IMG/VR virus record: IMGVR_UViG_3300009374_000868 | Span: 1 to 44,799 of that record | DNA from: a virus | Reading direction: 5' to 3' (one strand) | Length of the DNA: 44,799 nucleotides | Part shown: one piece after another, positions 6,622 through 35,301 of the stretch | Position numbering within the stretch: the first letter of the stretch is position 1 | Layout of the letters: the number at the start of each line of letters is the position of its first letter | Translations under genes and position numbers: made by a program | The notes under the pieces: generated by a model | The model's database searches: none | What the model was told of the DNA's origin: nothing | Seen by the model: the letters and a program-made list of their open reading frames with translations, nothing else

Positions 6622-7845
6622 CTAAAGTTCAGTATAGGGCAGTGCTAACACCTTGGGTGCGAGAGGTAACGCTGTTTCACCTGGATAGATTACATAGCCC
6701 TGAGTCACTTTTTCAGGAAAATCATTGAAGATCGTTTTGACGGAAGATGCCATTCTTGGGCGTGCAGTAGCTGTGTGCTTGATCTCAATAGGAATCAAAC
6801 GGTTGTTTATGTCAATGAGGAGGTCAATTTCAACGCCAGCTGATGTCCTCCAGAAATATAAACGAGGCATGTCACCTCGGCTAAGGTATCGTTTGTATAT
6901 ATCAGTCACAACCATGGTTTCGAAAATGGCACCAGCCATAGGACCAGCAATCGCATGCTTGGGCTCAGTGATACCTGTTAGATGACAGAGCGTGCCAGTA
7001 TCTGTGAAATATATTTTTGGTGATTTTACCATGCGTTTACCGACATTCACAAAGTATGGACGGAGGATAATAACCATGTAGGATGCTTCCAGGACAGATA
7101 ACCAATGCCTGGCTGTGTTGCTGGAAATACCAATACTTCGACCAAGGTCAGATAGGTTAAGTAGTTGACCACTACGGATAGCCAATGCTCGAACGAAGGT
7201 TTGAAAGAGGATTAAATCTCCAACCTGACGAATAGATCGAACATCTCGTTCTATGTAGCTCTGAATATAGCTACCATGCCAGGATTCCGATCTAATCGTT
7301 GGTTCAGAAATTAGTTCTGGATAGAATCCACGCAGCATGTTTTCCCAAAGTTGGGTCAGAGGAACGGAAGTACGCGTCAAAAGATCATCATTACGTTCCC
7401 ATGGAAATCGTGAATCCTCATACTTAGAAATCTCGATTTGGGACATTGGTAAAAGTTTGAGTATTGCAGTTCTACCAGCGAGCGATTCGGTAACTCTATC
7501 CAAAAGAGCAAGGTTTTGTGATCCTGAAAGTAGAAAGCGGCCAGCTTCATCCCTTCGCTCGTCAATCATAAATTTGATATATGGGAGTAATATTGGAGTA
7601 TTCTGAATTTCATCGAAAATCACGGGAGGAGGATTTAAAGCAAGGAAACCACGGGGATCTGTTTCAGCAGCAAGTTGATTATCAGGCAAATCCATAGAGA
7701 CATAGCGATGGGTTTTCCCGAAGAGTTCTTTCAAGGTAGTTGTTTTACCTGACTGACGAGGACCGGTCAAGGTGATTGCAGGGAACTGTTCTGCAGCCTT
7801 TAGCAGTATGGGTTCGATGCTACGATGGATGTATTTTACGCTCAT
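6622..7845 (-). CDS. AAA+ ATPase with C-terminal DUF4143-type domain
   Basis: A 407-aa ATPase of a family widespread in bacteria and archaea, usually as stand-alone accessory genes without an established function. Walker A is GPRQSGKT (28-35), Walker B is VIFDEIQ (75-81), and the sensor segment is LLSGSQN (105-111), followed by LAGRTAILKLLPMS. The C-terminal half has a winged-helix-like part (LNLSDLGRSIGISSNTARHWLSVLE) and a nuclease-like fold segment (FWRTSAGVEIDLLI ... PIEIKHT), whose E-x-D ... E-x-K spacing resembles a PD-(D/E)xK core. Its start has AGGTG at good spacing. It runs against the late genes and lies between TerS and TerL, so it is probably a lysogenic-conversion or accessory gene. 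Any role in defence or as part of a toxin-antitoxin pair is speculative. Confidence 0.88.
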   Translation of the reverse strand: MSVKYIHRSIEPILLKAAEQFPAITLTGPRQSGKTTTLKELFGKTHRYVSMDLPDNQLAAETDPRGFLALNPPPVIFDEIQNTPILLPYIKFMIDERRDEAGRFLLSGSQNLALLDRVTESLAGRTAILKLLPMSQIEISKYEDSRFPWERNDDLLTRTSVPLTQLWENMLRGFYPELISEPTIRSESWHGSYIQSYIERDVRSIRQVGDLILFQTFVRALAIRSGQLLNLSDLGRSIGISSNTARHWLSVLEASYMVIILRPYFVNVGKRMVKSPKIYFTDTGTLCHLTGITEPKHAIAGPMAGAIFETMVVTDIYKRYLSRGDMPRLYFWRTSAGVEIDLLIDINNRLIPIEIKHTATARPRMASSVKTIFNDFPEKVTQGYVIYPGETALPLAPKVLALPYTEL

Positions 7846-11598: not shown

Positions 11599-13164
11599 AT
11601 GAAGACTGATACGAAAACACCTCCTTCGCGGGGGAATGAAGCTGAAAACTTCAAGGCTGTCGATGCCATTGTAGTCGATTCAGAATTGATGGGGACCGCA
11701 GCTAATATCGCATCTGGTGTGTTCAGCTCTGAGTATGAGATAAAGGGTATCCCTTCAGACTGGAAAGAACGGGCGCGCAAGGCTTGGGAATATTATTGCG
11801 AAGAACCGATCGTTTCCAACACGATCAATACTTGGCGGACATTTGCCATTGGCGACCAAGTGAAGATCATATCAGATGATGAATCGGTTCGATCCGAGGG
11901 CACAGAGTTATTCAATATGCTCAATGTGAACCGATTTCTGAAAGACATGATTCAACAATTGCTGGTAAAGGGCGAATGCATTGGATACAAGCGTTACGGC
12001 TCGGACGGAAAAACTTCCAAGGGTGAGCATAACGACATTGTCAAGCTGATCTGTGTTAATCCTCCCTCAGTCGATCTTGAATTTGAGAATGGAGAACTTG
12101 TTAAGGCGATCCAGAAACCGGAAACGGAAAGTGGTACCACCGGAGATGAAATTGATCTTCCACTTGACCAGATGATCCACCGCAAATGGAACGCGCCACA
12201 GTTTTCGCAGCGAGGCAATTCTATGGTGACACCGGCGTTCGAATCAATTGAACTACTCAGGGATTATCGAAGGGCACAACGCGCCATTGCCAAGCGCTGG
12301 ACGACACCCCTTCGTTTCATTCTGGTCGGTGGTAAGTACGGCGATAAAGTAATCATGCCCACCCAGAAAATGATCTCAACCATCCGCGACCAGATTAATA
12401 AGATGGATTTAAAATCGGGTCTGGTAGTGCCGTTTTATGTACGAGCCGAAACCTATGGCACCGAGGGACAGGTTCTGAATACCGAGGACAAGGTCAAAGA
12501 GGTCAAGGAGGATATCATCGTGGCTCTCGGTGTTGCCAAGTCTCTCGTCACAGGTGATGGACCTAACTTCGCAACCGCGTCAATCGCCTTTCAGAAAATG
12601 GTCATCATGCTGAAGGAGATCAAGCAGGTGGCACGCGAGATTCTCAACTGGGTATTCAATGACTGGAAGGAGATGAAGGGCTATTCCGAAAATGAAATCC
12701 AATACATCTTCTCCGACGTTGATCTGACCAACGAAATTGATGTCAAGAAACTACTGATCGAACTTTACGACCGCAATCTGATATCCAAAAATACCATTCA
12801 GACCAAGATGGACTTGAATCCCGATGTTGAAAAGTCTAATCGCACCAAGGAGGGCACACTGGTCGACATGTCCTGGGACATCAAGGATATTGTTTCGCTC
12901 GTGCAGATGGGAGTTATGTCGGTGCAGACGGCGCGTGAGATGCTGGGCATGGACAAGGTGAAAGAGGACTCCCGCGTACTGAAGCAGGAGAAATCAGAGT
13001 CTGAAGGAATGTATGCATCTGCAAGTGAAGATCATATTTGTGACGAGTGTGGATTCTTTGATGCTGAGAATAACCATTGCACCGTTACAGATGAAGAACG
13101 ACGATTCGATCAAGTTGCGTGCAGGCAATTTCTCGGGGGCGAAAGTGTGGAGATGGCAGATTGA
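11599..13164 (+). CDS. Portal protein with a C-terminal Cys cluster
   Basis: A 521-aa protein at the portal position between terminase and MuF, with the usual mixed alpha/beta body: RARKAWEYYCEEPIVSNTINTW near the start, a GECIGYKRYG strand, the clip/stem-like LLRDYRRAQRAIAKRW and helices through about 460. It would form the dodecameric channel at the capsid vertex. Unusually, the last 45 residues hold C-x2-C-x9-C-x13-C (HICDECGFFD ... HCTVTDEERR ... VACRQF), which looks like a small metal-binding knuckle. The gene overlaps the MuF start by 4 nt. Confidence 0.85.
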   Translation: MKTDTKTPPSRGNEAENFKAVDAIVVDSELMGTAANIASGVFSSEYEIKGIPSDWKERARKAWEYYCEEPIVSNTINTWRTFAIGDQVKIISDDESVRSEGTELFNMLNVNRFLKDMIQQLLVKGECIGYKRYGSDGKTSKGEHNDIVKLICVNPPSVDLEFENGELVKAIQKPETESGTTGDEIDLPLDQMIHRKWNAPQFSQRGNSMVTPAFESIELLRDYRRAQRAIAKRWTTPLRFILVGGKYGDKVIMPTQKMISTIRDQINKMDLKSGLVVPFYVRAETYGTEGQVLNTEDKVKEVKEDIIVALGVAKSLVTGDGPNFATASIAFQKMVIMLKEIKQVAREILNWVFNDWKEMKGYSENEIQYIFSDVDLTNEIDVKKLLIELYDRNLISKNTIQTKMDLNPDVEKSNRTKEGTLVDMSWDIKDIVSLVQMGVMSVQTAREMLGMDKVKEDSRVLKQEKSESEGMYASASEDHICDECGFFDAENNHCTVTDEERRFDQVACRQFLGGESVEMAD

Positions 13165-14027
13165 ATCAGGCAGAACAAATCCAACAAGCCGTCCTGTGGA
13201 GTCTTCATTCGCGCGACCTTTACACTGAGCGACAGGTCAACACAATGCTGAAATCTCTCCGCATAGCTGAGATGCATGTCAAATCACAACTGGTTGAAAT
13301 CGGCGAGAAAAAGCTCCTGAAGAAAGGTCTTGAGGTTCGTCGTGAACAACTTCGCGGTATCCAGAAAGGAATCGATAAGATAATCGGTGACCTGAAAAGT
13401 GACCAGACTGTGATCATGAAAAACGCTGTCAGGGATTCATTCCGGAACGGCATTACCGGCAGCATCGGAGAATTTAGCGAACTGAAATTTCCACATTATG
13501 AGAACTTATCTCACGAAGACAGAGTCAAGTTGGCTGGACAGGTGATGAGTTTGACTGATCGATCGGCATTGGACTTCCTCGTTAATTACGACCTTCAACT
13601 GCTGGGCAATGTCACACGAGAGCTGGCAGACAATATCAAGCAGCAGATATCTGTAGGCATCGTGAGCGGAGATTCGATTGCCAAGATTGGAGAAAAGATT
13701 GGAGGGATAATTACCGATCCCAATGAGTTTCGACTCGTCGGCAAGACCGTATTCAAGACAGCACAGACGAGAGTTGAGGTAATTACCAGGACTGAGACAC
13801 TGCGAGCTTTCGGACAGGGACGAAATAAGTTTTACGACAGGATCGGCGTGAGAAGAGTTGTCTGGGTGACAGCCGGTGATGAACGCACCTGTCCTGAATG
13901 CGGTCCACTTGACGGCAAGGAGTTTCCAATCGATCAAGCGCCCCCAATTCCGAAGCATCCGCAATGCCGTTGTACAACATTTGCAGCTCGTGCACGGATT
14001 TGCCGGGCAGGACAACCGGTGCATTAA
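13161..14027 (+). CDS. Mu gpF-like head morphogenesis protein
   Basis: A minor head protein of the MuF family. The family signature is clear at the C-terminus: WVTAGDERTCPECGPLDGKEF, then PIPKHPQCRC, a Cys/His cluster shared with Mu gpF and SPP1 gp7. The N-terminal part is helical. I place the start at TTG 13161: it overlaps the portal stop (TTGA), has GGAG 8 nt upstream, and reads MNQAEQIQQAVLWSLHSRD, giving 288 aa. The ORF is open back to an ATG at 13119, which would mean a 46-nt overlap with no clear ribosome site. It is expected to bind portal and capsid and may be injected. Confidence 0.88.
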   Translation: MNQAEQIQQAVLWSLHSRDLYTERQVNTMLKSLRIAEMHVKSQLVEIGEKKLLKKGLEVRREQLRGIQKGIDKIIGDLKSDQTVIMKNAVRDSFRNGITGSIGEFSELKFPHYENLSHEDRVKLAGQVMSLTDRSALDFLVNYDLQLLGNVTRELADNIKQQISVGIVSGDSIAKIGEKIGGIITDPNEFRLVGKTVFKTAQTRVEVITRTETLRAFGQGRNKFYDRIGVRRVVWVTAGDERTCPECGPLDGKEFPIDQAPPIPKHPQCRCTTFAARARICRAGQPVH

Positions 14028-14029
14028 TA

Positions 14030-17000
14030 ATGACAAATCCAACCACATATCTCCACACCTGGGCGATAGCCATTCAGGCTGCATCGAAGAAGGAAAACTT
14101 CGATTGCATCCTCGTGCCATCCGAAATATCTGAGATGGCAACCAAGAAACATGGCGAAGCGGTTAAGGTCGGGAAGGCAGTTTCTGAGGGGGAGTTCGAG
14201 AAACTGACAATCAAACAGTTGCAGAAGCTTGCCCAAGCCAACAGCATATCGATTGCCCGCACCAAGAAGGACTTTATCAAGCTGTTGAAGCCCCTGGAAC
14301 CAGATATAGACTTGGACATGATGAAGGGAGCGGAACTCAAATCAATTATCAAGAAGCACAAAATTGGCGCTCTGCGATCTAAAGACGAATTGATTGCTCT
14401 GCTGAAAAAGAAACTTACTGAAAAAGCTGTGCTGGAGAAAAGCAAGGAACTCGTAGGCAAGCAGATAAAAGCTCTCAAACAGAAGATCTCGATTCACCTG
14501 GATCAACTGCCCGGGTTGAAACCACAGGAATTCAAACTTGCACAAAACCACTTCGAGAAGGTTTCAGAAGCTCTTGCTGAAGCAAAATCTCTTCTTCCGG
14601 AAATTGAATGGTCGGCGCTGAAACAGCAGTATGAATATGCTCGCAGTTCATTCGTCCAGACGGTGAAAGCCCTGAAGGGCAAGGACCTGAAGACCATCGC
14701 AAAACAGGCAAAGTTGAAACATTACCAGTGGGCATCGAAAGAGGATCTGATCACCCTCATGACTTCTGATGATCCGGTGGCTATTATTATGGCAAAGGAT
14801 AACATTGAGGTTAAATGGGCAAAGTGGTCTGAGAAGCATGGAAAGAAGTCTAAAGCTCCAAAGCCAGCCGTCAAACCCACTACAGTGAAACTGCTTAAAC
14901 CTCTGTCACACTCCTCGCATTTCACCAACCCTGATGAAGCCTGGAAGAAGTTTTCGAAAAGTAATCCGTTCAGTTACCAGGGACGAGCTGACATAGAGGG
15001 GGCGCACACCAAGTATTTCTTCACCGATAAAAGCGACAACAAATGGCTTTTCAAACCAGTGTCGGAAGAATTTCGGGGGCACGGTGATGATGTGGCTTAT
15101 CGCATTGGCAGGCTGATCGATCCCGAATCAATCGAAGTCCGTTTCATTGAACTCGATGTTCCAGGCAGAGGGAAGCTCAAGGGCTCGATCCAGAAATGGC
15201 GAACCGACCTACAGAAGGAGTTTGATTTTCGTGATGCAATAGTTGAGAATCTGTCTGGTTCTGAGCTTGAACAGTTGCAGCGCGAGCATGTTATCGACTG
15301 GCTGATTTCCAATCATGACGCTCACTGCAAGCAGTTCCTGCGGTTGAAAGATGGACAGGTCAAGGGGATTGATAAAGGGCAACTGTTTAAATTCATCGGT
15401 GATGATCACCTGTCAATTAATTACCATCCTAACAAAGCGTTTGGAGAGCGTGAACCCTTTTACAATACAGTGATGCGTGCCTGGCGCGATGGCAAGATCG
15501 AGATGGACCTACAGGCGACATACAAATATATCAGTAGTATTGAATCAATCACAGATGATGCCTACATCGATTTACTCAAGCCATACGCAGAGAGGAGGTT
15601 TACCAAGCAACAACTGAAATTGAAGCACTTCTACGAAACTGCGCTTATCCGCAAGAACAACCTTCGACAAGACTTTGAAGAATTCTACACTGAACTTCTC
15701 CGGAAAAGAAAAAAAGACAAAAAGGCAGTATTCCATTTCGATGTTGATGGAAAGGAATTGCCAGATGGAAAAGCTGCAAAAGGATACAGGCATATTCCTG
15801 AAGACGCGGAAATCCTGGTTAAAGAAGCGAAGGAATCAGGTTGGCAGGGCAAATCACTCCCCGTGGATGTGGATGATATCGAGGATCAGAATGTGCTGCT
15901 CTATACTGAAAAGGTAAAGAGTAAGACTCGAACAGTGATGCGTTTGAAGATTCGACCAGAAGCAGAAAAAAAGTTGCTCGCAAACCTCTCAACCGGACCG
16001 GGAGACACTATCGGGCAGGTCGCAGGTCAAGCTATGGCTGATGATCTGTTCTACGATGACATCCTGGCTGCGGTCAAGTCAATCAATTATCACATCAATC
16101 AGGGAGACTTCAATTTCAATAAGTCAACAATCGACCAGGCATTATCTCATCGGCTTGCTTTATCCAAATTGACAGGAATGCGAGATCGAGAATTGAGGTC
16201 TTTGGCAAAATCTTATCTGAAGATCCTTGATGAACTCGATGTTTCTATCTCAGCAAATGGTAGAAAGAAAATCAGGGCGTTTAAACAGTATTTGAAAAAA
16301 GAAAAACCTGTCAAACCATCAGGTGATAAGATTCCAACTGTGAAAAGAAATACCGTTTATGGAGACCAAAAGGTCGTTCGGAAAGGCAAGATAGTGGTTA
16401 TGGATGAGGATGTAACACTCAGAAAATTGCATTCCAGTTTCAAAGCTAAAGGTTTGGAATACAAGATCGACCTGGGAGACGGTGTTGAGGGAATCTACCG
16501 CCCGTGGATTAAGGAAAATTATTACTCGCACCAGGGACAGCTTGAACTTCGAATCCTCTCGGATTGCAACCCTGAATCTGCAGAACGGTTACTCGATGGG
16601 CTTGAGCGTCTCGGCATCGAAGCGTCTTTCTCATCGTCAGTTGATGCGGAATATATGTATCTCCTGAAACAAGCATACATCCTGAATGAGGATAAATCCC
16701 CTGCCTGGAAGAAGGTGCTCAAGAGTTTAGATACTCAGAAAGCCTCCAAAGCTGAAAGAGTCAAAACCCTTCGGCAGTATTGGTCAGATCATTTGGGTGT
16801 CAAAGATGTTACTCGAATTCCAGGATACGACCCCAAAGGCAAATATTCCATCATGTCATCCGCCTGGAAAAAGAAAAAGGATGCTGGATACCGACACCAG
16901 CTCAGGTTCGATATTTCAGATGACCACATGAAACGTGAACTGGGTGATTATGGATTATATCACCGATTGACGAATGGAAGCGACGTCGCAAGCGTCCTGG

Positions 17001-17488
17001 ATGAGATTCTGGATCATAACGGAGCCTTGATCTCAACTGTTGAAAAAATGAGGGTGGGGATTCCGGTGGGTGGCATGAGTCCCAGTTCTGACATGGGAAC
17101 TGGGGGCGCCAGTTATTTCTTCACACGCATTCGCAAGCTTCCCGGAGTGGGATACGAGCGTGGTGATACCGGCTTCTACTTCAAACCGCACCTGCTGCGC
17201 CGAATGGATGCGATCACCTATGAAGGTGATAAATACGGGCGTGTCACCGGCAATCATGTCAGGCAGCATCGAAAGGTTAATATTACTGATTACAAATCCA
17301 TTGCATCCCGGAAAAGCTCTGATGAGACGATCTTCAAGAATGAAGTGACGCTGTTGGATAACCTGCAGATGGTTACAGTTAGCAACGAATCTGAAAAACG
17401 CAGAGTGCTGAATGTCTTCAGGAAGCATGGTGTGACTCGTTTGCCGGATGGCAGACAGGTCAAGGAAATCGTAAGGACGACGAATTAG
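14030..17488 (+). CDS. Giant multidomain head-module protein (SAP-like repeats, kinase-like, ART-like); candidate polyvalent injected protein
   Basis: 1152 aa from ATG 14030, just after MuF; the frame is open back to ATG 13964 inside MuF. N-terminal part: three SAP/HeH-like helical motifs, LTIKQLQKLAQANSISIARTK (59-79), LKSIIKKHKIGALRSKDELIALL (103-125) and LKTIAKQAKLKHYQWASKEDLI (about 220-241). Middle (about 300-470): a region like HipA/PI-kinase folds, with KWLFKPV, then SNHDAHCKQF (427-436; candidate catalytic Asp and His) and GIDKGQLFKF (446-455; candidate metal-binding Asp). C-terminus (about 976-1120): LYHRLTNGS, then MGTGGASYFFTRI, then FKNEVTLLDN, which could be the H-Y/S-E layout of an ADP-ribosyltransferase. 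Long charged linkers separate the parts. Large multi-enzyme proteins after MuF are known as polyvalent proteins carried in the virion. The kinase and ART calls are inferences from motif shape only. Confidence 0.75.
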   Translation: MTNPTTYLHTWAIAIQAASKKENFDCILVPSEISEMATKKHGEAVKVGKAVSEGEFEKLTIKQLQKLAQANSISIARTKKDFIKLLKPLEPDIDLDMMKGAELKSIIKKHKIGALRSKDELIALLKKKLTEKAVLEKSKELVGKQIKALKQKISIHLDQLPGLKPQEFKLAQNHFEKVSEALAEAKSLLPEIEWSALKQQYEYARSSFVQTVKALKGKDLKTIAKQAKLKHYQWASKEDLITLMTSDDPVAIIMAKDNIEVKWAKWSEKHGKKSKAPKPAVKPTTVKLLKPLSHSSHFTNPDEAWKKFSKSNPFSYQGRADIEGAHTKYFFTDKSDNKWLFKPVSEEFRGHGDDVAYRIGRLIDPESIEVRFIELDVPGRGKLKGSIQKWRTDLQKEFDFRDAIVENLSGSELEQLQREHVIDWLISNHDAHCKQFLRLKDGQVKGIDKGQLFKFIGDDHLSINYHPNKAFGEREPFYNTVMRAWRDGKIEMDLQATYKYISSIESITDDAYIDLLKPYAERRFTKQQLKLKHFYETALIRKNNLRQDFEEFYTELLRKRKKDKKAVFHFDVDGKELPDGKAAKGYRHIPEDAEILVKEAKESGWQGKSLPVDVDDIEDQNVLLYTEKVKSKTRTVMRLKIRPEAEKKLLANLSTGPGDTIGQVAGQAMADDLFYDDILAAVKSINYHINQGDFNFNKSTIDQALSHRLALSKLTGMRDRELRSLAKSYLKILDELDVSISANGRKKIRAFKQYLKKEKPVKPSGDKIPTVKRNTVYGDQKVVRKGKIVVMDEDVTLRKLHSSFKAKGLEYKIDLGDGVEGIYRPWIKENYYSHQGQLELRILSDCNPESAERLLDGLERLGIEASFSSSVDAEYMYLLKQAYILNEDKSPAWKKVLKSLDTQKASKAERVKTLRQYWSDHLGVKDVTRIPGYDPKGKYSIMSSAWKKKKDAGYRHQLRFDISDDHMKRELGDYGLYHRLTNGSDVASVLDEILDHNGALISTVEKMRVGIPVGGMSPSSDMGTGGASYFFTRIRKLPGVGYERGDTGFYFKPHLLRRMDAITYEGDKYGRVTGNHVRQHRKVNITDYKSIASRKSSDETIFKNEVTLLDNLQMVTVSNESEKRRVLNVFRKHGVTRLPDGRQVKEIVRTTN

Positions 17489-18613: not shown

Positions 18614-20158
18614 TCAACCAATCAAATGGTATTCTGTGATTTCCTGATGATTAGAATAATCTATTTCACCATAATAACCAAACATTCCCTTCATTGCTTC
18701 TACATGAGGAATCGGTTTATTTGTTTTTTGGTCTACGACTTCCGCTATCCAAAATACTGGATTCGTATTCGATCTTGGTTCTATGGTACATTGCACCCCT
18801 CTTATTCTTGAATATGCCTGCTCAGCAACTTCTTTCATAGAAAAAGATCCATCGTCCGCTAAGTCCTTTATTAACCAAGTTAATATGTGACCCATAAATT
18901 CCTCAGCATGACTCTCTAGTGGAATTATACAACGGTTCCAAAAACAACCTTTACTTTCTTTCCGACACATTCTTCCAAGTTGCACAAGGCAATCTAACGT
19001 AGCAACCACAGTTTGTCTTGAATCAATTTTCGCAGCATTACAACCGAGGTAAGAAAGTGTTTCCATGCAACGATAAACAAAATGATCATGATTTGTTGTT
19101 AAGGCCTTATATCCTAAATTTTTTATAAGAAATGCATATCCAGCAATGTTCCACTGATCGAGACTATTTCCATTGGTCTTTTTTGCATCTTCCTCTATCG
19201 CGTGAATTGCTAGTTCAGTAACGGCATGAATTGTATTTAACACTCTCATCGGCTCATCACTCGTTTTCGCTTCTAAAGTCAATTCACCGAGATGTAGAAT
19301 GTCTTTCATAATGCTCTTCGCAAGACTACTAAGTGGTTTTGCCAAGGTCTTAGGTTTTCTGAGTAAAGCGCATAGTTTTGACGTTAATACCTCTAAATAT
19401 ATACCCTCCTCATCCTCATTTGAAATCCAGTTGATGAGTGCTCCAAAGCGTTTGTGCGTAATTGATCTTACACCCTCTAATTCTTTGTAATCACCTTCTT
19501 GCTTTGATTCAATCTCGTATGACAAAACCAAAATATTTAATATCTGATCCATACACTTGAGAAAAACAGGATAATCATTATTGCTGAATGATTGTTTAAA
19601 TACAACTGCTACTTTATCCCAAACGTCATTCTCAGGAAGTCCAAGTGATTCTGGTAGAAAGGAATATTCATGCTCTGGAATATCAAATACTTTCTTGCTT
19701 TCGAGAAATTTATTATGTCGTTTTACTTCTTGTGAAGTTATCTCATATAAGTTATCCACATATCTTAGGATTAATTTATTTTTACAAACATTGTTTAGAT
19801 ATTTAACCGGATCAAGATAGTTCATGGTTAATATCGCATTGTCAATAGATGACCAAAATATAAAGGGCAGAATCCAGAATGCAATATGCGAGTATAACGA
19901 TGGAAGTACTAAAAATAAAATTAAAGGCACGAAAGGAAAAAACAACAAAAGGGTGATATTAAACCATTGACGTTTAGTTATTTCTACCAATATGGGTTTA
20001 TATCGAGAAAGCTGATATCCAAAGAAAGTAAAATTTATGGAGAAAATAGCAATAACGAAATTAGCGCTAATTAACCATCCCGAAAACTGATCGATATCTT
20101 TACCTATCGAGAGAAAGATTAATGCAATTTCAATTACGATAAAGAAAAGAAGTCTCAT
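18614..20158 (-). CDS. Membrane-anchored hypothetical protein, AT-rich accessory gene
   Basis: 514 aa. Hydrophobic segments at about 2-19, 28-49, 66-88 and 91-108 suggest three or four membrane helices at the N-terminus. A large, mostly helical soluble part of about 390 aa follows, with several Cys (CMDQILNIL, LGCNAAKID, GRMCRKESKGCFWNRC). It has a good Shine-Dalgarno sequence (GAGGGG) before the ATG. The gene is opposite to the late operon and visibly more AT-rich than its neighbours, and AT-rich noncoding DNA flanks it, so it looks like a separately acquired moron. The layout would fit a membrane-bound defence or superinfection-exclusion protein, but no family is recognised. Confidence 0.75.
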   Translation of the reverse strand: MRLLFFIVIEIALIFLSIGKDIDQFSGWLISANFVIAIFSINFTFFGYQLSRYKPILVEITKRQWFNITLLLFFPFVPLILFLVLPSLYSHIAFWILPFIFWSSIDNAILTMNYLDPVKYLNNVCKNKLILRYVDNLYEITSQEVKRHNKFLESKKVFDIPEHEYSFLPESLGLPENDVWDKVAVVFKQSFSNNDYPVFLKCMDQILNILVLSYEIESKQEGDYKELEGVRSITHKRFGALINWISNEDEEGIYLEVLTSKLCALLRKPKTLAKPLSSLAKSIMKDILHLGELTLEAKTSDEPMRVLNTIHAVTELAIHAIEEDAKKTNGNSLDQWNIAGYAFLIKNLGYKALTTNHDHFVYRCMETLSYLGCNAAKIDSRQTVVATLDCLVQLGRMCRKESKGCFWNRCIIPLESHAEEFMGHILTWLIKDLADDGSFSMKEVAEQAYSRIRGVQCTIEPRSNTNPVFWIAEVVDQKTNKPIPHVEAMKGMFGYYGEIDYSNHQEITEYHLIG

Positions 20159-20425: not shown

Positions 20426-23400
20426 ATGAACACCGAATTCAAACGCGTTCGCTTCATCCTCGAAGCGGAGGCTGAGTTTTGCCTAGCACGGGATACAGAG
20501 GACAATATCGAAGCAGCGCAGGATCTGCCTCCGTACGTTACCAATTACATCGGTTCCAAACAGAAACTGGTGGATTGGATCTGGGTGCATACTCCAGACG
20601 GCGTAAAGAGTGCGCTCGATGCCTTTTCAGGTAGTGCGGTGGTTGGTTACATGTACAAGGCTAAAGGGCTGCGCGTGATTGCCAACGACCGGTTGCATTA
20701 CTGTTACCACATCGCCAGAGCGATCATCGAGAACAACTCCGTGACGGTTTCGGGCGAAGAACTCGACGCCCTGCTGAAATCCAATTCCAAGGCAGGCGAC
20801 TTCGTCCAGGAAACCTTCCGAGGGAAGTTCTTCCAATCCGGCGTTCACCAGATAATCGATAATATACGGTTAAACATTGATGATCTACAAGGATATAAGA
20901 AGGACATTGCGCTTTTTGCCCTAGCTAAGACCTGTATTTCAGGTTCTGGCAGCTATGGTCACTTCGCATCGACATCTAAGGGAAGCGGAAATCGGCAAGC
21001 GGATACACCCAAAGCATTTACCGACCGCTTCCGGGATAACATCGTTCGGGTAAACAGCCTGGTCTTTGACAACGGCAAAGAGAACAAGGTTTTCTGCAAG
21101 GAAATCCTCGAGGTCATTCCTGATGTCAAGGTTGACCTGGCATATTTCGATCCTCCCTATGCTACAGAATTTTCAACTACAAACTATGCGACTTCTTACC
21201 ACTTCGTTGAAGGCTTAATGACTTACTGGAAGGGGCTTGAGATCGATGAATCGAGCCGAGTGAAGAAGTTCCTCACCGACCATCAGACGGTCACGCAGTC
21301 CAATTCCGAAGAGTTCTTCGATGGATTCCTGGACAAGTCAAAGGGAATCAAACATTGGATTATCTCGTACCGGGATCATGCCTATCCGAATGAAGCAAAG
21401 ATGAAGAAGCTGATCAATAGGCATGGCAAGAGTTCCCGGATGTTCAGCAGGGATCACTCTTACAGTATGGCAGGTCAGAACCGCTCTGGCGAAGCATCGC
21501 ACGGCAAAGAACACATCTTTGTCTGCAGCAATCAGATAGCTGCTAAAGCGGACATGTTAGAAGAACCATTCATGACAGTTGCTGACTTGCAAGGTGAAGC
21601 AGCTAAGGATTCTGACGCTCGTGTTACTGCCTTCATGGGTTCGAAGCATGACATGCTGGATTGGATTTGGAACTACACTCCAGAAGGTGTGAAATCAGCT
21701 CTCGACCTGTTCAGTGGCGGAGCCAATGTCGGTTATTTCTACAAGAAGAAGGGATTACGGGTCATCTCGAATGATCTGCTGGACTATCCCTATCACATCG
21801 CAAGGGCGGTAATCGAGAACTCATCGGTCACTATTTCGGATGAGGATATCGAAGCGCTCCTTGAACCGAACTCGTCGGCAGGTGATTTCATAATAAAGAC
21901 ATTTTATGGGTATTACTACACCAAGCCAATACTTGAATTCCTCGAAAACGCTTATGCGAAAATCCAGCAACTCACGGGATATAAAAAAGATATTGCACTC
22001 TTTGCACTTGGTCGTACCTGTCAAATCCGTGCTTGCTTTGGTGAATATTCCCGTTCGAAGAAGAGTTTGACCGAACCGATTCCCGATGACGCCAACAAGT
22101 ATCCCAATTCCCATATTGGTAATCCTTCCACTTCTGAATTCAAGGAACTGTTCGTCAAGTGTATTCATAATGCTAACGCGCTGGTGTTCGACAACGGACA
22201 GGAATGCAAGGTCTATCATCAGGAAGCGCTGAGTCTTCTACCGAAAGTTAATGTCGATCTTGTTTACGCTGATCCACCTTATATGACACAGTTCGGATTC
22301 AACGACTATGAGGACAAGATGCACTTTGTGGAAGGATTGATGACCTATTGGAAGGGCAAAGAAATCCTAGATAATAAACGCCGCAATTACAAGTCAAAAA
22401 CTAAATATAACAAGGACAGCATCCGGCAGTTAATTCAGGGTTTCGTTGAAAGATCTGCTCAGGGTAATTCCAGGCTCCTCATGAGTTATCGGGATAAAGC
22501 TTATCCCACTGCAGCAGAATTAAAAGAAATGTTTGGGGAGAATTACGACGAAGTCGATTTCAGACGACGAGCTGTTTCCTATGGAATCGCTAAGTATGCT
22601 GGTGAAGGATCAGGACGCGACGCTCAGGAGTATTTGATCATTGCGTCAAAACCGAAAAAGCAGAGTTCAGCCAAAGCAGCGATTAATATAACCCGTTCCT
22701 GTCACACATCCCTCACTGGTAACATAATCCTCCCAGAAGGTTTGTCCTCTGAAGCAATAACCCGGAAGCCAGTTGGTGACCAGAAATTCACTTTCATTTT
22801 AACCCATGCCGGCACCAACCTCAATGGGGATCATTTCAGTGTTGACGAGCTTCGCAAAAACCATGAAAGCGCAATCAATACAAAGATCGATCTTAAGCAT
22901 TCACAGGATTTGACGGATATCGTGGGTGGAGTTACCGAGGCTCGGTTCAAGGAAGAAGATAATGGTTTTGTCGAGTGCGATGGTGAACTCTACACCGAGG
23001 ACAATCCGTTTGCCCGTCTAGCGCACAAGCTGATCCGTAAGGGTATCGTGAAGCAGGTCTCGATGGAGTGTGATTATGAGGAAGGTGAGTGTTCGATCTG
23101 CAAGAAACGCATTAAATCGAAGAAGAATTATTGTCTGCACCTCAAGAAATATAAAGGGCAGGAATATCAAGGCAGGAAGGTTTACGAGATCCTGCACAAC
23201 ATAACATTCACTGGGATGGGACTCCTGGACCGCAAGGGAGCTGATCCCGGTGCGAAAATATTAAGTGTAGCAAAAAACACATTAAGCATAGAGGATAACA
23301 ATATGGAAACGATTGCCGATTTCCAGTCCTATTTGACCGCTAAAAAGATTAACGAGGAGGTCTGGCCGTTGACCAGCGCTTTCGAGGGATACATCAGGGA

Positions 23401-23959
23401 ACTGCTGAAAAAATTTGGTTCGGAAGAGATGAGTGCCAATGATCTGAACTCGTCAATCACCACAGGACTGGAAGTGTTCAGCAACAAGGTTAAGGGTCTG
23501 GTCAATGTGGCGAAAAGCGAGGCGGCAAACAAAGCCTCTGCTGGAGTCGAGGAAGACCTGAAGAAAGTTCAGCAGGAGAATGAGGACCTGAAGAAACAGG
23601 TCGAAGATCTGCAGAAGAAAATCGAGGCTCATGAAACCGAGAAACGCAAGGCTGAACGAAATACCCGAGCCGCTAAACTGGTCGAAACCTGGGAACAGCG
23701 CGGACGGAAGTTCAAGGATGAAGACGAACGAACGGCTGAGATCGAACGCCTTGCCGGTCTGGATGACAGCGCTTTTGATGCTGCCAGATCAGTAATTGAT
23801 GCTTTACCGGAAAACAAGGCTGAAGGCGCGGAACACAAGGATAAGGTGCTACGCAGTGATGCCGGTATCGATCCTGCTGTAGTGGATGATAAAACAGGCA
23901 ACCTGGCAACGCGGCTCAGCAAGGGATTGCGCGACGTTCGTGAAGCCCAGATTACATAA
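20426..23959 (+). CDS. Tandem D12-class DNA adenine methyltransferases fused to prohead protease and scaffold
   Basis: One uninterrupted 1177-aa frame. Residues 36-370 form a D12-type N6-adenine methyltransferase with AdoMet motif DAFSGS (65-70) and catalytic DPPY (242-245). Residues 398-742 form a second, paralogous one with DLFSGG (427-432) and DPPY (616-619); both share the stretch HFVEGLMTYWKG. Residues 785-945 form a prohead serine protease-like domain, with candidate catalytic His in IDLKHSQD (H825) and Ser in KQVSMEC (S879), and an inserted C-x2-C-x10-C-x-H knuckle (889-905). From 960 on it is a scaffold-like region with a coiled coil (about 1050-1085). No good ribosome site precedes ATG 20426. 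The upstream 267 nt are AT-rich, with no gene. The methyltransferases could protect DNA from restriction; fusion to the head-assembly protein suggests they enter the prohead. Confidence 0.88.
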   Translation: MNTEFKRVRFILEAEAEFCLARDTEDNIEAAQDLPPYVTNYIGSKQKLVDWIWVHTPDGVKSALDAFSGSAVVGYMYKAKGLRVIANDRLHYCYHIARAIIENNSVTVSGEELDALLKSNSKAGDFVQETFRGKFFQSGVHQIIDNIRLNIDDLQGYKKDIALFALAKTCISGSGSYGHFASTSKGSGNRQADTPKAFTDRFRDNIVRVNSLVFDNGKENKVFCKEILEVIPDVKVDLAYFDPPYATEFSTTNYATSYHFVEGLMTYWKGLEIDESSRVKKFLTDHQTVTQSNSEEFFDGFLDKSKGIKHWIISYRDHAYPNEAKMKKLINRHGKSSRMFSRDHSYSMAGQNRSGEASHGKEHIFVCSNQIAAKADMLEEPFMTVADLQGEAAKDSDARVTAFMGSKHDMLDWIWNYTPEGVKSALDLFSGGANVGYFYKKKGLRVISNDLLDYPYHIARAVIENSSVTISDEDIEALLEPNSSAGDFIIKTFYGYYYTKPILEFLENAYAKIQQLTGYKKDIALFALGRTCQIRACFGEYSRSKKSLTEPIPDDANKYPNSHIGNPSTSEFKELFVKCIHNANALVFDNGQECKVYHQEALSLLPKVNVDLVYADPPYMTQFGFNDYEDKMHFVEGLMTYWKGKEILDNKRRNYKSKTKYNKDSIRQLIQGFVERSAQGNSRLLMSYRDKAYPTAAELKEMFGENYDEVDFRRRAVSYGIAKYAGEGSGRDAQEYLIIASKPKKQSSAKAAINITRSCHTSLTGNIILPEGLSSEAITRKPVGDQKFTFILTHAGTNLNGDHFSVDELRKNHESAINTKIDLKHSQDLTDIVGGVTEARFKEEDNGFVECDGELYTEDNPFARLAHKLIRKGIVKQVSMECDYEEGECSICKKRIKSKKNYCLHLKKYKGQEYQGRKVYEILHNITFTGMGLLDRKGADPGAKILSVAKNTLSIEDNNMETIADFQSYLTAKKINEEVWPLTSAFEGYIRELLKKFGSEEMSANDLNSSITTGLEVFSNKVKGLVNVAKSEAANKASAGVEEDLKKVQQENEDLKKQVEDLQKKIEAHETEKRKAERNTRAAKLVETWEQRGRKFKDEDERTAEIERLAGLDDSAFDAARSVIDALPENKAEGAEHKDKVLRSDAGIDPAVVDDKTGNLATRLSKGLRDVREAQIT
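23303..23959 (+). CDS. Nested scaffold protein from an internal in-frame start
   Basis: Within the fusion gene, ATG 23303 is preceded by GAGG with 8-nt spacing (GAGGATAACAATATG), right after the protease domain ends (GADPGAKILSVAK). Translation here gives a 218-aa scaffold: a helical start, a Lys/Glu/Gln-rich coiled coil (DLKKVQQENEDLKKQVEDL) and an acidic end. The same nested arrangement of protease and scaffold is known for lambda C/Nu3 and Mu I/Z. The internal ribosome site is a better match than that of the full-length ORF, so the scaffold is expected in excess over the fusion protein. Confidence 0.65.
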   Translation: METIADFQSYLTAKKINEEVWPLTSAFEGYIRELLKKFGSEEMSANDLNSSITTGLEVFSNKVKGLVNVAKSEAANKASAGVEEDLKKVQQENEDLKKQVEDLQKKIEAHETEKRKAERNTRAAKLVETWEQRGRKFKDEDERTAEIERLAGLDDSAFDAARSVIDALPENKAEGAEHKDKVLRSDAGIDPAVVDDKTGNLATRLSKGLRDVREAQIT

Positions 23960-23968
23960 GGAGATAAA

Positions 23969-24364
23969 ATGAGTGATTTCTATTTTAATCCATCGCATCC
24001 GGGAATTGCCTATGGTGATGGCGAGCTGCAGGGTCCGGGTGAAAAGGGTCAGTTCGTCAAACTGATCGATAACGACACCTTCGAGGTGGTGTCCGATGCG
24101 GCGGATGTTCCGGTAGGCATAATCTACCATCTCGACAAGCTGCAGCATATCACACCAGCAGCTACCGACAGGAATAAGGTTGCGGTCTATATGGATGGCG
24201 GCATCTATGAGACTGATAATATCACCGGTACAATCAGCGCGGATGATGATCTGACTTTCGATCCGACAAACGGAAACATTAAAGCTTGGGAAGCAGGTAA
24301 CTTTGTTGTCGGAAAAGCGCTGGCAGTTGAAGGCAGCATCGTCAAATTCAAGCTCGCACTGTAG
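23969..24364 (+). CDS. Probable capsid decoration protein
   Basis: 131 aa, beta-rich and acidic, lying between scaffold and major capsid protein. The start has AGGAG. The composition (GPGEKGQFVKLIDNDTFEV, VAVYMDGGIYETD, NFVVGKALAVEGSIVKF) resembles the small head-decoration proteins found in this position in lambda-like and Mu-like phages. It would bind the outer capsid surface and stabilise it. The role is inferred mostly from position. Confidence 0.7.
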   Translation: MSDFYFNPSHPGIAYGDGELQGPGEKGQFVKLIDNDTFEVVSDAADVPVGIIYHLDKLQHITPAATDRNKVAVYMDGGIYETDNITGTISADDDLTFDPTNGNIKAWEAGNFVVGKALAVEGSIVKFKLAL

Positions 24365-24372
24365 GAGAATTT

Positions 24373-25230
24373 ATGAAAACAAAAGCAATTACACCTGAAA
24401 AGTTCGATGCGATTGGCGCTGATATCAGGGAAGCATACGGAATGGGAGCTGATGGATTGCGCACGATTGCAGCCTCCATTGCCCCTCCGATTTACGACGA
24501 GATCAGACAGAAAGAGATCGCCTCGCTGCTACTCACAGAAAACAAACTACCCAAGGGTGAACCAGCGCGTTACAACAAGATCAAGGAGGTTCAGGCGTAT
24601 TGGATCGCTTCCGGAGGACAAGTTCACCGCTCGAACATGGATGATGCCGAGATCGAATTCCCCGTTGACCGCGTTGCATCCAATCCAGCGGTTGATGTGT
24701 CGGTTCTGCGTAACGGCGATGTACATCGCTTGACCGACATGGAGAAATGGGCAGGTTCTGCAATTCGCAAAAAACTTAACAAGCGTGCTGTGAAGGTCAT
24801 TTCCGGAGCAATTCCGGAAGCCAATACGGTTGAGATCGGCGGCGCTTCATTAACCGAGGATGGACTCAACCAGGCGATATCATTGCTCGAAGATAAAGAC
24901 TTGACCATCAAGTACATCGTGATGCGCGGTGGTCGTTTCAACGATATGCGCGGTTGGGATCTCGATCCGGTGACTGAGCGTGAGCTACGGGAGAAGGGTA
25001 TCCTGAAGTATTTCAATGGCGCACAGGTCATGACTACATCGGCTGCTCAGATGGATGAGATTCTATTAATCCCGGATGAGCCGGTCGGCAAGATGGCGGT
25101 AAGGACACCGATTGCTGTTGAACCGGACAATCGTCCGAGCGAATTCAAGGTCAGTTGGGTGGTGTGGATGGAACTGGCGCTGGGAGTTTTACGCTCCGAC
25201 CTGCTGGCTAAAGTCAAGATTCTCGGATAG
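24373..25230 (+). CDS. Major capsid protein (HK97-type fold expected)
   Basis: 285 aa directly after the protease/scaffold and decoration genes, with GGAG 7-8 nt before the ATG. It is of typical length for a mature-sized HK97-fold protein without a long N-terminal delta domain, consistent with a separate scaffold. Segments such as TERELREKGILKYFNGAQVMTTSA and the late strand RPSEFKVSWVVWMELALGVL fit the P-domain/A-domain layout of phage capsid proteins. The assignment rests on position plus overall character. Confidence 0.83.
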   Translation: MKTKAITPEKFDAIGADIREAYGMGADGLRTIAASIAPPIYDEIRQKEIASLLLTENKLPKGEPARYNKIKEVQAYWIASGGQVHRSNMDDAEIEFPVDRVASNPAVDVSVLRNGDVHRLTDMEKWAGSAIRKKLNKRAVKVISGAIPEANTVEIGGASLTEDGLNQAISLLEDKDLTIKYIVMRGGRFNDMRGWDLDPVTERELREKGILKYFNGAQVMTTSAAQMDEILLIPDEPVGKMAVRTPIAVEPDNRPSEFKVSWVVWMELALGVLRSDLLAKVKILG

Positions 25231-33946: not shown

Positions 33947-34396
33947 TTATAGTTCTCCTGAATGTGGATTCTTGGCTAGAGATATGATGTACTGAATGTA
34001 CTGTTCAGGTAATTGCCATTGACGGCAGCCTGCTAAAATTATGTTCAAGTAACCCGAACTGGGGCTTGAATATTGATTGCGGTCGGTCATTTGGTAGACG
34101 ACCACCTGCAATTCCCTGTTGTCTTCAGTGATAACGGGAACGGTTTTACGGATGTAAAGCCTGGGATATCCTTCGAAGCGGTCGAGGGATTGCAAATGTT
34201 CTTTGGAAATTTCATATAGTGCGCCGTGAACGTTGTGATCGACAACCGCCTCAATATTGGCCACACCCTTGAACATGAAGCGGTAATCGTTGAGCACTGC
34301 CCTGCAGAGTGGCTTGTTGCCCGGGCAGCGCATATTCATGCCGTCCAGATTGAGGTTCGCGCCATATGCGAAGTAAATAATTTTGTCCGATTTCAT
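33947..34396 (-). CDS. Gamma-glutamylcyclotransferase (GGCT/AIG2)-like protein
   Basis: 149 aa from ATG 34396; a longer frame to 34441 would overlap the amidoligase gene. The family start is clear: YFAYGANLN (the YGxN loop that holds the gamma-glutamyl group), then VHGALYEISKEHLQSLDRFEG, whose final Glu matches the catalytic acid, and YPRLYIRKTVPV. The family cleaves gamma-glutamyl amides with release of 5-oxoproline. Next to an amidoligase it would plausibly undo or edit the linkage. The pair is two bases apart. Confidence 0.85.
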   Translation of the reverse strand: MKSDKIIYFAYGANLNLDGMNMRCPGNKPLCRAVLNDYRFMFKGVANIEAVVDHNVHGALYEISKEHLQSLDRFEGYPRLYIRKTVPVITEDNRELQVVVYQMTDRNQYSSPSSGYLNIILAGCRQWQLPEQYIQYIISLAKNPHSGEL

Positions 34397-34398
34397 AA

Positions 34399-35301
34399 TT
34401 AAGATGCACTGTTTGATGTTGTTGGATTCCCGTAGCGCCATGCGCTGTTGCCGGGCAGGTATCGAGTCAGATGATAACGTGCAGTTTTGAACTCCTCACC
34501 CTTCATGCCGAGGGTGGATACAAGCCAGACCCGGAAGTTGAACTTAGGATTATCAGTTTGAATCTTGCGGTGGCTGGCTGATCGGGCATTCAGCGCTTTG
34601 GCTGAAAGTGCTAAGCAGAGCTGAATGTAGGCTCTGACCTTGCCGGCATGCAGAGTTGAATTGAAGTATCGCACTTCAATAGTGCCGATAGATCTCCAAA
34701 TATTGTTCAGATTTAAACCATGGTAGCGGTGCCCCTCATAATGCGCTGGGTTGGGATTGTAGCGTCCGAACCACATCTCATTTAGTTTCTGTTTCGATCG
34801 TGGTCGGCGTCGGGCAACTTTGTCGATGAACTCGTCATCCATTGGTCTGGTATATCTGCGTCGACGGTTAGGATGTACCTGAAGAGCATCGAAGATCATA
34901 TCCTCGTTTTTGTAAACCATTTTGGCGAGGATCGACAATGATTTAGTGTCATGGGATGCTGCATCTACATGAATATGGATGGCACAGTCTTTATGAGCTT
35001 TTGCGCCCTTGGCACTGACGTTACGAATCACATTCTGCAGCAGCTCGATATCGTCGTAAGCCAGCACCGGCGTTACGATCTCCGAACCTTTATAACCGTT
35101 GATTATGGGAATGGAACCGTCGTTTTGAATTTTCCATTCTCGGTTCTGCAGATCAGTAACGATCGTGGCGTCGTATCCAGCACGATGAGTCGCAGTAACA
35201 CGACCTCCGGTGCCCTCTGCAACTGCATTAGCGATGTTGCGCCTTGGTGCTCCCGCGAGTTCGATCTCGAAGCCAAAATTTTGTTCTTGAAGTGCGATCA
35301 T
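34399..35301 (-). CDS. Putative amidoligase (COOH-NH2 ligase, glutamine-synthetase-like fold)
   Basis: 300 aa with the layout of the phage/bacterial amidoligase family: FGFEIEL at the start (metal-binding Glu residues), KIQNDGSIP, GSEIVTPVL, CAIHIHVD, HGLNLNN and TIEVRYFNSTLHAGKVRAYIQLC. These are the strand motifs of the GS-like active site. It would use ATP to join a carboxylate to an amine on a peptide or small metabolite. GGAG is upstream of the ATG. It forms an operon with the GGCT-like and 87-aa genes on the minus strand, inside the tail operon. Confidence 0.87.
   Translation of the reverse strand: MIALQEQNFGFEIELAGAPRRNIANAVAEGTGGRVTATHRAGYDATIVTDLQNREWKIQNDGSIPIINGYKGSEIVTPVLAYDDIELLQNVIRNVSAKGAKAHKDCAIHIHVDAASHDTKSLSILAKMVYKNEDMIFDALQVHPNRRRRYTRPMDDEFIDKVARRRPRSKQKLNEMWFGRYNPNPAHYEGHRYHGLNLNNIWRSIGTIEVRYFNSTLHAGKVRAYIQLCLALSAKALNARSASHRKIQTDNPKFNFRVWLVSTLGMKGEEFKTARYHLTRYLPGNSAWRYGNPTTSNSAS

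Follow-up and report, generated by a model that had tools for sequence, protein, structure and literature searches.

Two predicted Dam-type methyltransferases are fused to a prohead protease and scaffold in a widespread viral head gene

We analyzed a stretch of viral DNA of 44,799 nucleotides (the window; IMG/VR record IMGVR_UViG_3300009374_000868) and found that one gene encodes, in a single chain, two DNA methyltransferases (A and B), a prohead protease and a scaffold part (Table 1). The reading frame runs from ATG through to the stop, exactly 20426..23959 (+). The original prediction, made from the DNA letters alone, had proposed one open frame with these parts, and our analysis bears out both the domain identities and the fusion. 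The fusion is genuine and widespread, and as far as we could find it is undescribed: no description turned up in the open-access literature. In the window, the gene lies directly upstream of the cement and major capsid genes, and cement then capsid genes follow the fusion in nearly all loci with enough downstream sequence. The major capsid protein apparently lacks an N-terminal delta (scaffold) domain.

Table 1. Coordinates of the fusion gene, its parts and neighboring head genes in the window
Feature	Position	Strand	Details
Portal	11599-13164	+	upstream, same head module
MuF minor head protein	13119-14027	+	upstream, same head module
Full-length fusion ORF (methyltransferase A - methyltransferase B - prohead protease - scaffold)	20426..23959	+	1177 aa
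Methyltransferase A, D12/Dam-type adenine	20546..21532	+	residues ~41-369; FSGS 67-70, DPPY 242-245; Pfam PF02086
Linker between methyltransferases, probably flexible	21536..21643	+	residues ~371-406; pLDDT <50 at 371-398, 403-406
Methyltransferase B, D12/Dam-type adenine	21623..22654	+	residues ~400-743; FSGG 429-432, DPPY 616-619; Pfam
Flexible linker before protease	22664..22774	+	residues 747-783; pLDDT ~30
Candidate self-cleavage point E776/A777	about 22753/22754	+	L-x-x-E-A motif; 9 residues before first protease strand
Prohead (assemblin-fold) protease core	22781..23269	+	residues 786-948; His825 22898-22900, Ser879 23060-23062
Nested in-frame start	23290..23305	+	AGAGGA 23290-23295, then ATG 23303-23305 (M960)
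Scaffold part, coiled coil	23303..23959	+	residues 960-1177
Cement/decoration-like head protein	23969..24364	+	Pfam Phage_cement_2 E 2.8e-4, below cut-off; after fusion in relatives
Major capsid protein	24373..25230	+	285 aa; PHROG_2522 major head protein E 4.4e-54

We checked the frame for a frameshift at 22660-22760, a possibility that the original prediction had raised as a caveat, and excluded it, as colinear open relatives were found. An independent Calditrichaeota assembly (L082) carries a colinear 1177-aa ORF with 84% identity to the window fusion, and the parts follow one another in the same order, in a single open frame, in dozens of viral contigs and bacterial genomes of independent origin, complete chromosomes of Desulfosarcina and Sulfidibacter included. 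An assembly error or a mis-called read-through of neighboring genes, for which we found no support beyond that caveat, is thus ruled out by colinear homologues from independent metagenomes and from complete chromosomes of cultured bacteria, and we give it virtually no weight.

The search for other phages with the same fusion, suggested at the outset, returned many relatives. Hosts of the lineage include Desulfobacterota, Acidobacteriota, Calditrichota, Kiritimatiellota, an Ectothiorhodospira and others; the cultured candidate lysogens are Desulfosarcina widdelii, Desulfobulbus rhabdoformis DSM 8777, Ectothiorhodospira shaposhnikovii DSM 243 and Sulfidibacter corallicola. Sampling of the phylum of D. 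widdelii showed the fusion in 7 of 297 genomes, every time open and 802-1291 codons long; the phylum-level sample for the S. corallicola group yielded few members (2/297 genomes). The protease domains of the relatives share just 51-83% identity with the window's own, yet the fusion is kept. It comes in two forms, with one methyltransferase (~800 aa) or with two (~1180-1370 aa); among the candidate lysogens, E. shaposhnikovii DSM 243 has the first form and D. widdelii the second. The single-methyltransferase relatives had been absent from the original prediction. A methyltransferase is present in 93 of 100 distinct protease-bearing ORFs; among the seven ORFs without it, four end at a contig edge and two are split by a frameshift, with the methyltransferase just upstream. 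Two relatives are methyltransferase-free (L204/L211 and L127), which argues that the methyltransferase is dispensable for head building. No D12 methyltransferase was seen outside the fusion in the three viral records examined. A close methyltransferase is a stand-alone gene in a different phage, L123. A second apparent case of a free gene, L069, has foreign ends and looks chimeric, and we set it aside as evidence. A phage collection search gave matches to the methyltransferase part only, and our literature search found no isolated or analyzed virion, or virion proteome, of the fusion family.

The two methyltransferases carry complete D12 sets, as had been proposed: motif I (DAFSGS in A, DLFSGG in B) is followed by motif IV (YFDPPY and YADPPY), and Pfam MethyltransfD12 (PF02086) matches the ORF twice (E 1.4e-41). 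DPPY is retained in all 86 methyltransferase domains of the family (A copies, 32/32; B copies, 32/32). Single-sequence searches found no solved relative of A or B. Because sequence and profile searches with the methyltransferases and the protease gave little, folds had to be compared: Foldseek with the full-length model returned E. coli Dam as the best PDB match (prob 1.00, target-normalised TM ~0.6). Both domains are predicted to be active Dam-type adenine enzymes. No helicase domain was found in the ORF by Pfam, and its architecture is not that of a methylase-helicase. Many relatives bear an accessory domain of ~130 aa at the position of the A-B linker. Copy B forms a separate, old paralogue clade, and losses of it have occurred; the duplication is old.

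We then consider what these enzymes may recognize. E. coli Dam and DpnII-type methyltransferases have the same fold and motif order as the fusion domains, and homologues on plasmids (~30-33% identity), some of them beside DpnII-family endonucleases, carry the annotation Dam family or DNA adenine methylase. However, the recognition hairpin of the fusion differs, so GATC specificity does not follow. The window shows no avoidance of GATC (329 observed versus 382 expected), a count that cannot decide specificity. Within one protein, the hairpins of A and B that align to the Dam recognition region share just 26-30% identity, and it is plausible from the sequences that A and B recognize different sites. 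Across viruses from several host phyla, copy A is about as conserved in its recognition region as elsewhere in the enzyme, which disfavors a host-by-host arms race; such conservation would be unlike a tailored anti-restriction enzyme. We saw no restriction partner beside the fusion.

The protease domain is a herpes/T4-type prohead protease. Its candidate catalytic His825 and Ser879, named in the original prediction, are invariant in 56 of 56 sequences. A profile search with the domain gave little beyond zinc fingers matching its Cys/His insert, a zinc-finger-like CxxC...CxH at residues 889-905. The domain was modeled by AlphaFold2 with a pLDDT of 87, and the best PDB matches were mostly T4 gp21 and herpesvirus assemblins, in keeping with the predicted class: T4 gp21 came top (E 0.012, prob up to 0.99) along with many herpesvirus proteases, with protease-fold E-values of just 0.01-0.1 and other folds (MlaD) among the matches. 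Many BFVD matches are named prohead proteases (E down to ~1e-7).

Long helices are predicted at residues 963-1125, in agreement with the coiled-coil scaffold that had been proposed. The scaffold identity rests on these helices, on gene position and on weak profile matches (Pfam Phage_scaffold, E 1.3e-4; PHROG scaffold, E 1.1e-3). The scaffold part opens with an in-frame start codon. Among the relatives, a Shine-Dalgarno match of at least 6 nt precedes this nested start in 36 of 44 non-redundant sequences, versus 0.76% for other in-frame start codons (n = 1841) and 0.68% for other 35-codon windows (n = 1180); the full-length start has a 6-nt match in just 4 of 41. The window's own nested start is of moderate strength (AGAGGA), weaker than in the relatives. 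The start at 23303 had been overlooked in the original prediction. We infer nested translation at M960: free scaffold is probably also made from this start, in excess over the full-length protein, as in lambda C/Nu3.

The domains of the window ORF are all separated by linkers of low model confidence (pLDDT). In the linker before the protease, T761 is invariant (56/56), and the motif [LMIVF]xxEA occurs in 21 of 38 such linkers versus 3.9 ± 1.7 in shuffled ones. The E-A pair is not universal, some relatives having D, S, Q or R for E. We found no enrichment of L-x-x-E-A in the linker separating the methyltransferases, in the stretch following the protease or at the C-terminal end; one cleavage motif common to all linkers is thus ruled out. 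Self-cleavage at the candidate E776/A777 may free the methyltransferases. A nested start giving free protease was rejected as well: a strong Shine-Dalgarno (at least 6 nt) precedes the protease in 0 of 40 methyltransferase-protease linkers, so the protease comes attached to methyltransferase.

Taken together, these results suggest a C/Nu3-like head gene with N-terminal methyltransferases that would be loaded into the prohead, released by the maturation cut and retained in the head, a reading that we hold with moderate confidence. Two products would be made: few full-length molecules from the weak start and many free scaffolds from the strong nested start. The full-length protein would co-assemble into the prohead core, because the scaffold part is common to both products, and each protease would thus arrive in the prohead with methyltransferase attached. 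Entry of the full-length protein through its scaffold part, expected from the original prediction, is well supported, and the nested scaffold start strengthens the expectation. At maturation, the protease would cleave its own chain immediately before the core, in the manner of T4 gp21, severing the methyltransferases, and would digest the scaffold. The freed methyltransferases, each of ~40 kDa, would remain inside the head and could methylate DNA either as it enters or, following ejection, in the next host. Retention in the virion, ejection and protection from restriction are speculative, and maturation might instead destroy the methyltransferases or remove them along with the scaffold. A bolder reading, which we advance tentatively, makes the N-terminus a cargo slot: active methyltransferases would be loaded via the scaffold, cut free by the protease's activation, closed inside the virion and ejected together with the DNA, and in some relatives the slot would also hold extra small domains.

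Alternatively, the methyltransferase could mark progeny DNA during replication or packaging, then be cut up or expelled, and never be injected. The late head-gene position and the fusion would bring the enzyme to the prohead, the active sites of A and B are conserved, and the conserved recognition region would fit a fixed mark. However, a free late methyltransferase would suffice for this, which leaves unexplained why the enzyme is constantly joined to the prohead protease; we consider marking of this kind unlikely. It is less probable still that the ORF is a polyprotein for co-expression, cut early in the cytoplasm so that the released methyltransferase would work outside the head, on phage or host DNA, as an ordinary phage Dam does. 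The low-confidence linkers, the conserved L-x-x-E-A before the protease and the separate gene in L123 would suit such a scheme, yet T4 gp21 is active only once the prohead is complete (PMC9958956), few late copies would fit cytoplasmic methylation poorly, and the fusion persists despite the divergence of the protease domains. That the methyltransferase domains are chiefly structural, holding DNA in head assembly with catalysis incidental, seems very improbable: almost every member keeps them, invariably N-terminal to the head protease, but the invariant DPPY is not needed for DNA holding alone, copy B has been lost, and methyltransferase-free relatives exist.

Loading and release from within a head gene, as we favor, have partial precedents. 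In lambda and P2, a single gene encodes protease and scaffold (PMC8508860). As in the fusion, the protease and a C-terminal scaffold share one chain just upstream of the decoration and capsid genes, and lambda gpC/Nu3 also has an in-frame nested start for free scaffold; however, lambda and P2 lack a methyltransferase, the fusion has ~750 extra N-terminal residues, and its protease is of the assemblin/T4 gp21 and phage prohead protease fold with a zinc-finger-like insert. T4 gp21 has the same protease fold and cleaves itself N-terminally, nine residues being removed on activation, and the enzyme Alt is a component of the prohead core (PMC9958956); T4 cargo, however, consists of separate proteins with cleavable targeting sequences, outside the protease-scaffold chain. 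DarB of phage P1 is a packaged protein and is believed to pass into the cell (PMC9024508). Like the fusion, DarB and the polyvalent proteins (Iyer et al. 2017, PMC5512222) combine a head-associated adenine methyltransferase, a contractile-tailed phage and potential DNA protection. In contrast, DarB is a methylase-helicase with a short N-terminal targeting signal, encoded apart from the protease, whereas the fusion enzymes are D12/Dam-type, without a helicase, and covalently joined to prohead protease and scaffold; in the polyvalent-protein paper (PMC5512222), prohead protease appears only in the reference list. Finally, PHROG_27806, 'DNA methyltransferase', matches residues 399-950 and, in addition, the scaffold (E 5.6e-281). 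With 798 columns, it represents the same fusion in its single-methyltransferase form, and its name covers the methyltransferase alone, leaving out protease, scaffold and nested start.

Prophage genes of this lineage are likewise likely annotated 'DNA methyltransferase', although they encode the protease and scaffold that seem to be missing. To our knowledge, known head-carried phage enzymes are separate proteins with targeting tags; in the fusion, the enzyme is instead part of the head protease itself. If true, the proposed mechanism would give a simple way to test whether incoming DNA is protected through adenine methylation by a virion protein. If loading and release hold, the fusion would be a self-timed delivery device, in which the loading and release of the enzyme are inherent in head maturation.

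The fusion frame is uninterrupted, and Pfam matched the D12 adenine methyltransferase family twice within it (E 1.4e-41), confirming the prediction that a single ORF holds two D12 methyltransferases. It lies in a 44.8-kb virus record with portal, MuF, terminase, baseplate J and minor tail genes. PHROG_27806 ("DNA methyltransferase") matched fusion residues 399-950 and, separately, the scaffold (E 5.6e-281); its 798 columns thus cover methyltransferase, protease and scaffold. The fusion is already contained in the PHROG library under that family, whose name is silent about it.

A frameshift or assembly error, which the original prediction had named as its refutation, is contradicted by the relatives. 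A Calditrichaeota assembly (L082) encodes a 1177-aa protein colinear with the window fusion at 84% identity, and the fusion also occurs in three complete chromosomes, those of Desulfosarcina widdelii, D. alkanivorans and Sulfidibacter corallicola. The suggested search for the same fusion in other phages returned relatives on 80 viral and 49 genome contigs. ORF analysis of these relatives showed an open fusion frame in nearly all complete cases, with sizes of ~800 aa (one methyltransferase), ~1180 aa (two) or ~1285-1370 aa (two plus an inserted domain). Among 297 sampled genomes of the phylum of D. widdelii, 7 were carriers, all with long fused frames. The methyltransferase was present in 93/100 distinct protease-bearing ORFs. 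Four of the other seven were cut by contig ends, two were split by a frameshift with the methyltransferase upstream, and in one (L127) it is really absent. In a second S. corallicola prophage (L204/L211), the corresponding slot behind MuF is occupied by a 416-aa protease-scaffold that lacks a methyltransferase, and no D12 methyltransferase was found elsewhere in its 90-kb record.

We modelled the whole chain with AlphaFold2 (45 sequences in the alignment). The model contains two methyltransferases (44-369, 408-743) that match E. coli Dam in Foldseek, a protease (786-948) and scaffold helices (963-1125), separated by low-confidence stretches (371-406, 747-783, 950-967); with a whole-chain pTM of 0.43, it does not predict the relative arrangement of the domains. 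Modelled alone, the protease domain reached pLDDT 87 and best matched T4 gp21 and herpesvirus assemblins, with E-values of only about 0.01-0.1. The predicted prohead protease is nevertheless a firm assignment because the match list is consistent and BFVD gave many named prohead proteases. The proposed catalytic residues His825 and Ser879 also held up: both are invariant in 56/56 sequences, as are D831, E854 and a C889/C892/C903/H905 cluster. Distant protease relatives were found in Bacillus phage G (gp19), with weak ones in Vibrio and mycobacterial phages. The putative scaffold is identified by weak profile matches, long helices, position and a nested start. A viral BFVD entry from outside the window named for a Ferritin/DPS domain (A0A6J5N5R9) matched the full-length model in the same prohead-protease-rich list and may be a further case of cargo attached to a head protease.

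Several other features accompany the fusion in the window or its relatives (see table). The MuF gene and the ORF it overlaps look as if a larger MuF fusion had been split in the window. Between the MuF operon and the fusion, close relatives carry genes that are unrelated to one another, and this interval looks like a cargo gene slot. GGCC is strongly avoided both across positions 1-44799 (14 seen, where tri- and dinucleotides predict 87) and in L082 (11 of 36), and many other relatives show no avoidance; this pattern points to a GGCC-cutting host restriction enzyme, which the phage would escape by site loss. The linkers of relatives contain accessory domains of ~115-150 aa, of three types that are unrelated to each other and have no Pfam or PHROG match; the first type (WEET...AKEWI) is also the N-terminus of the methyltransferase-free L127. 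The L069 ORF has foreign N- and C-terminal ends and is either a recombination product or a chimeric assembly.

Features of the window and of contigs carrying relatives of the fusion (L handles)
Feature	Sequence	Position	Strand	Remarks
Fusion ORF	window	20426-23959	+	uninterrupted, 1177 aa
AAA_14 + DUF4143 ATPase gene	window	6622-7845	-	between replication and packaging genes
MuF gene overlapping 1174-aa ORF	window	13119-17488		PHROG_6577 (1066 columns) matches both
514-aa protein	window	18614-20158	-	hydrophobic N-terminal segments; in MuF-fusion gap
2089-aa ORF	L082	1501-7770		signal-like N-terminus; counterpart of the window's MuF-fusion gap
Amidoligase_2 gene (E 6e-54) adjoining gamma-glutamyl cyclotransferase/AIG2-like gene (E 4e-15)	window	33947-35301	-	opposite strand, within tail module
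Methyltransferase A + part of accessory domain	L069	7656-9572		one ORF
Accessory domain WEET...AKEWI	L091 fusion	residues 384-515		
Accessory domain HSILHRW	L012	residues 763-905		
Accessory domain LPYR...GARGG	L018 second ORF	residues 281-425		

Among the methyltransferase domains (METHYLTRANSFERASES), DPPY is present in 86/86 and motif I is recognisable in most. In the methyltransferase tree, copies A and B form separate groups; most single copies fall within A, and the three that group with B all come from truncated or split ORFs. Thus, the duplication is old and copy B has since been lost. Within copy A, the presumed DNA-contacting region is conserved, but it differs strongly between the two copies of one protein (26-30% identity at 172-201), as would fit two different targets. 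Homologues on plasmids, at ~30-33% identity, carry Dam-family annotations, and some of them lie next to DpnII-family endonucleases. An unfused A-type methyltransferase, frameshifted near its end, lies in the head operon of a different phage (L123) whose head protease is unrelated.

Directly 5' of the scaffold, relatives carry a strong Shine-Dalgarno sequence ahead of an in-frame ATG, GTG or TTG (for example, GAAGGAGGTCCGACG-ATG). At this nested start, 36/44 non-redundant members match at six or more bases; the same threshold was reached at 0.76% of the 1841 other in-frame start codons and in 0.68% of the 1180 other 35-codon windows. Such a signal is rare at the full-length start (4/41), and no strong one was found in the linker before the protease (0/40). 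The window has AGAGGA seven bases 5' of ATG 23303, weaker than most relatives. L204, which has no methyltransferase, shares the nested start, so this start either predates the methyltransferase or arose independently of it. Lambda C/Nu3 follows the same plan; in lambda and P2, one gene encodes both protease and scaffold (PMC8508860). Such a plan implies that the scaffold would be made in excess, with the full-length protein as a minor, co-assembling partner.

In T4 gp21, the N-terminus keeps the protease inactive until self-removal of nine residues activates it upon prohead completion (PMC9958956). The SPN3US protease cleaves after AxE (PMC10052503), and the P1 capsid protein is cut between E120 and S121 (PMC9024508). 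The low-confidence linker ahead of the protease contains a conserved L-x-x-E-A motif (21/38 linkers versus 3.9 expected), with E replaced in some; in the window, E776/A777 sits 9 residues ahead of the first protease strand. We infer a candidate cleavage site at which a gp21-like activating cut would release the methyltransferases. Because the linkers are homologous, conservation of the motif alone does not prove cleavage.

We found no description of the fusion in open-access papers. Its parts belong to known families (Dam-type methyltransferase, assemblin-fold prohead protease and lambda-type nested scaffold); the novelty is their combination in one chain. Once freed, the enzymes may be lost, or may methylate the DNA as it is packaged; alternatively, they may stay in the head and then be ejected like the P1 Dar proteins. 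DarB has a helicase-bearing architecture, and the fusion, having no helicase, is not DarB-like in architecture but may work like DarB.
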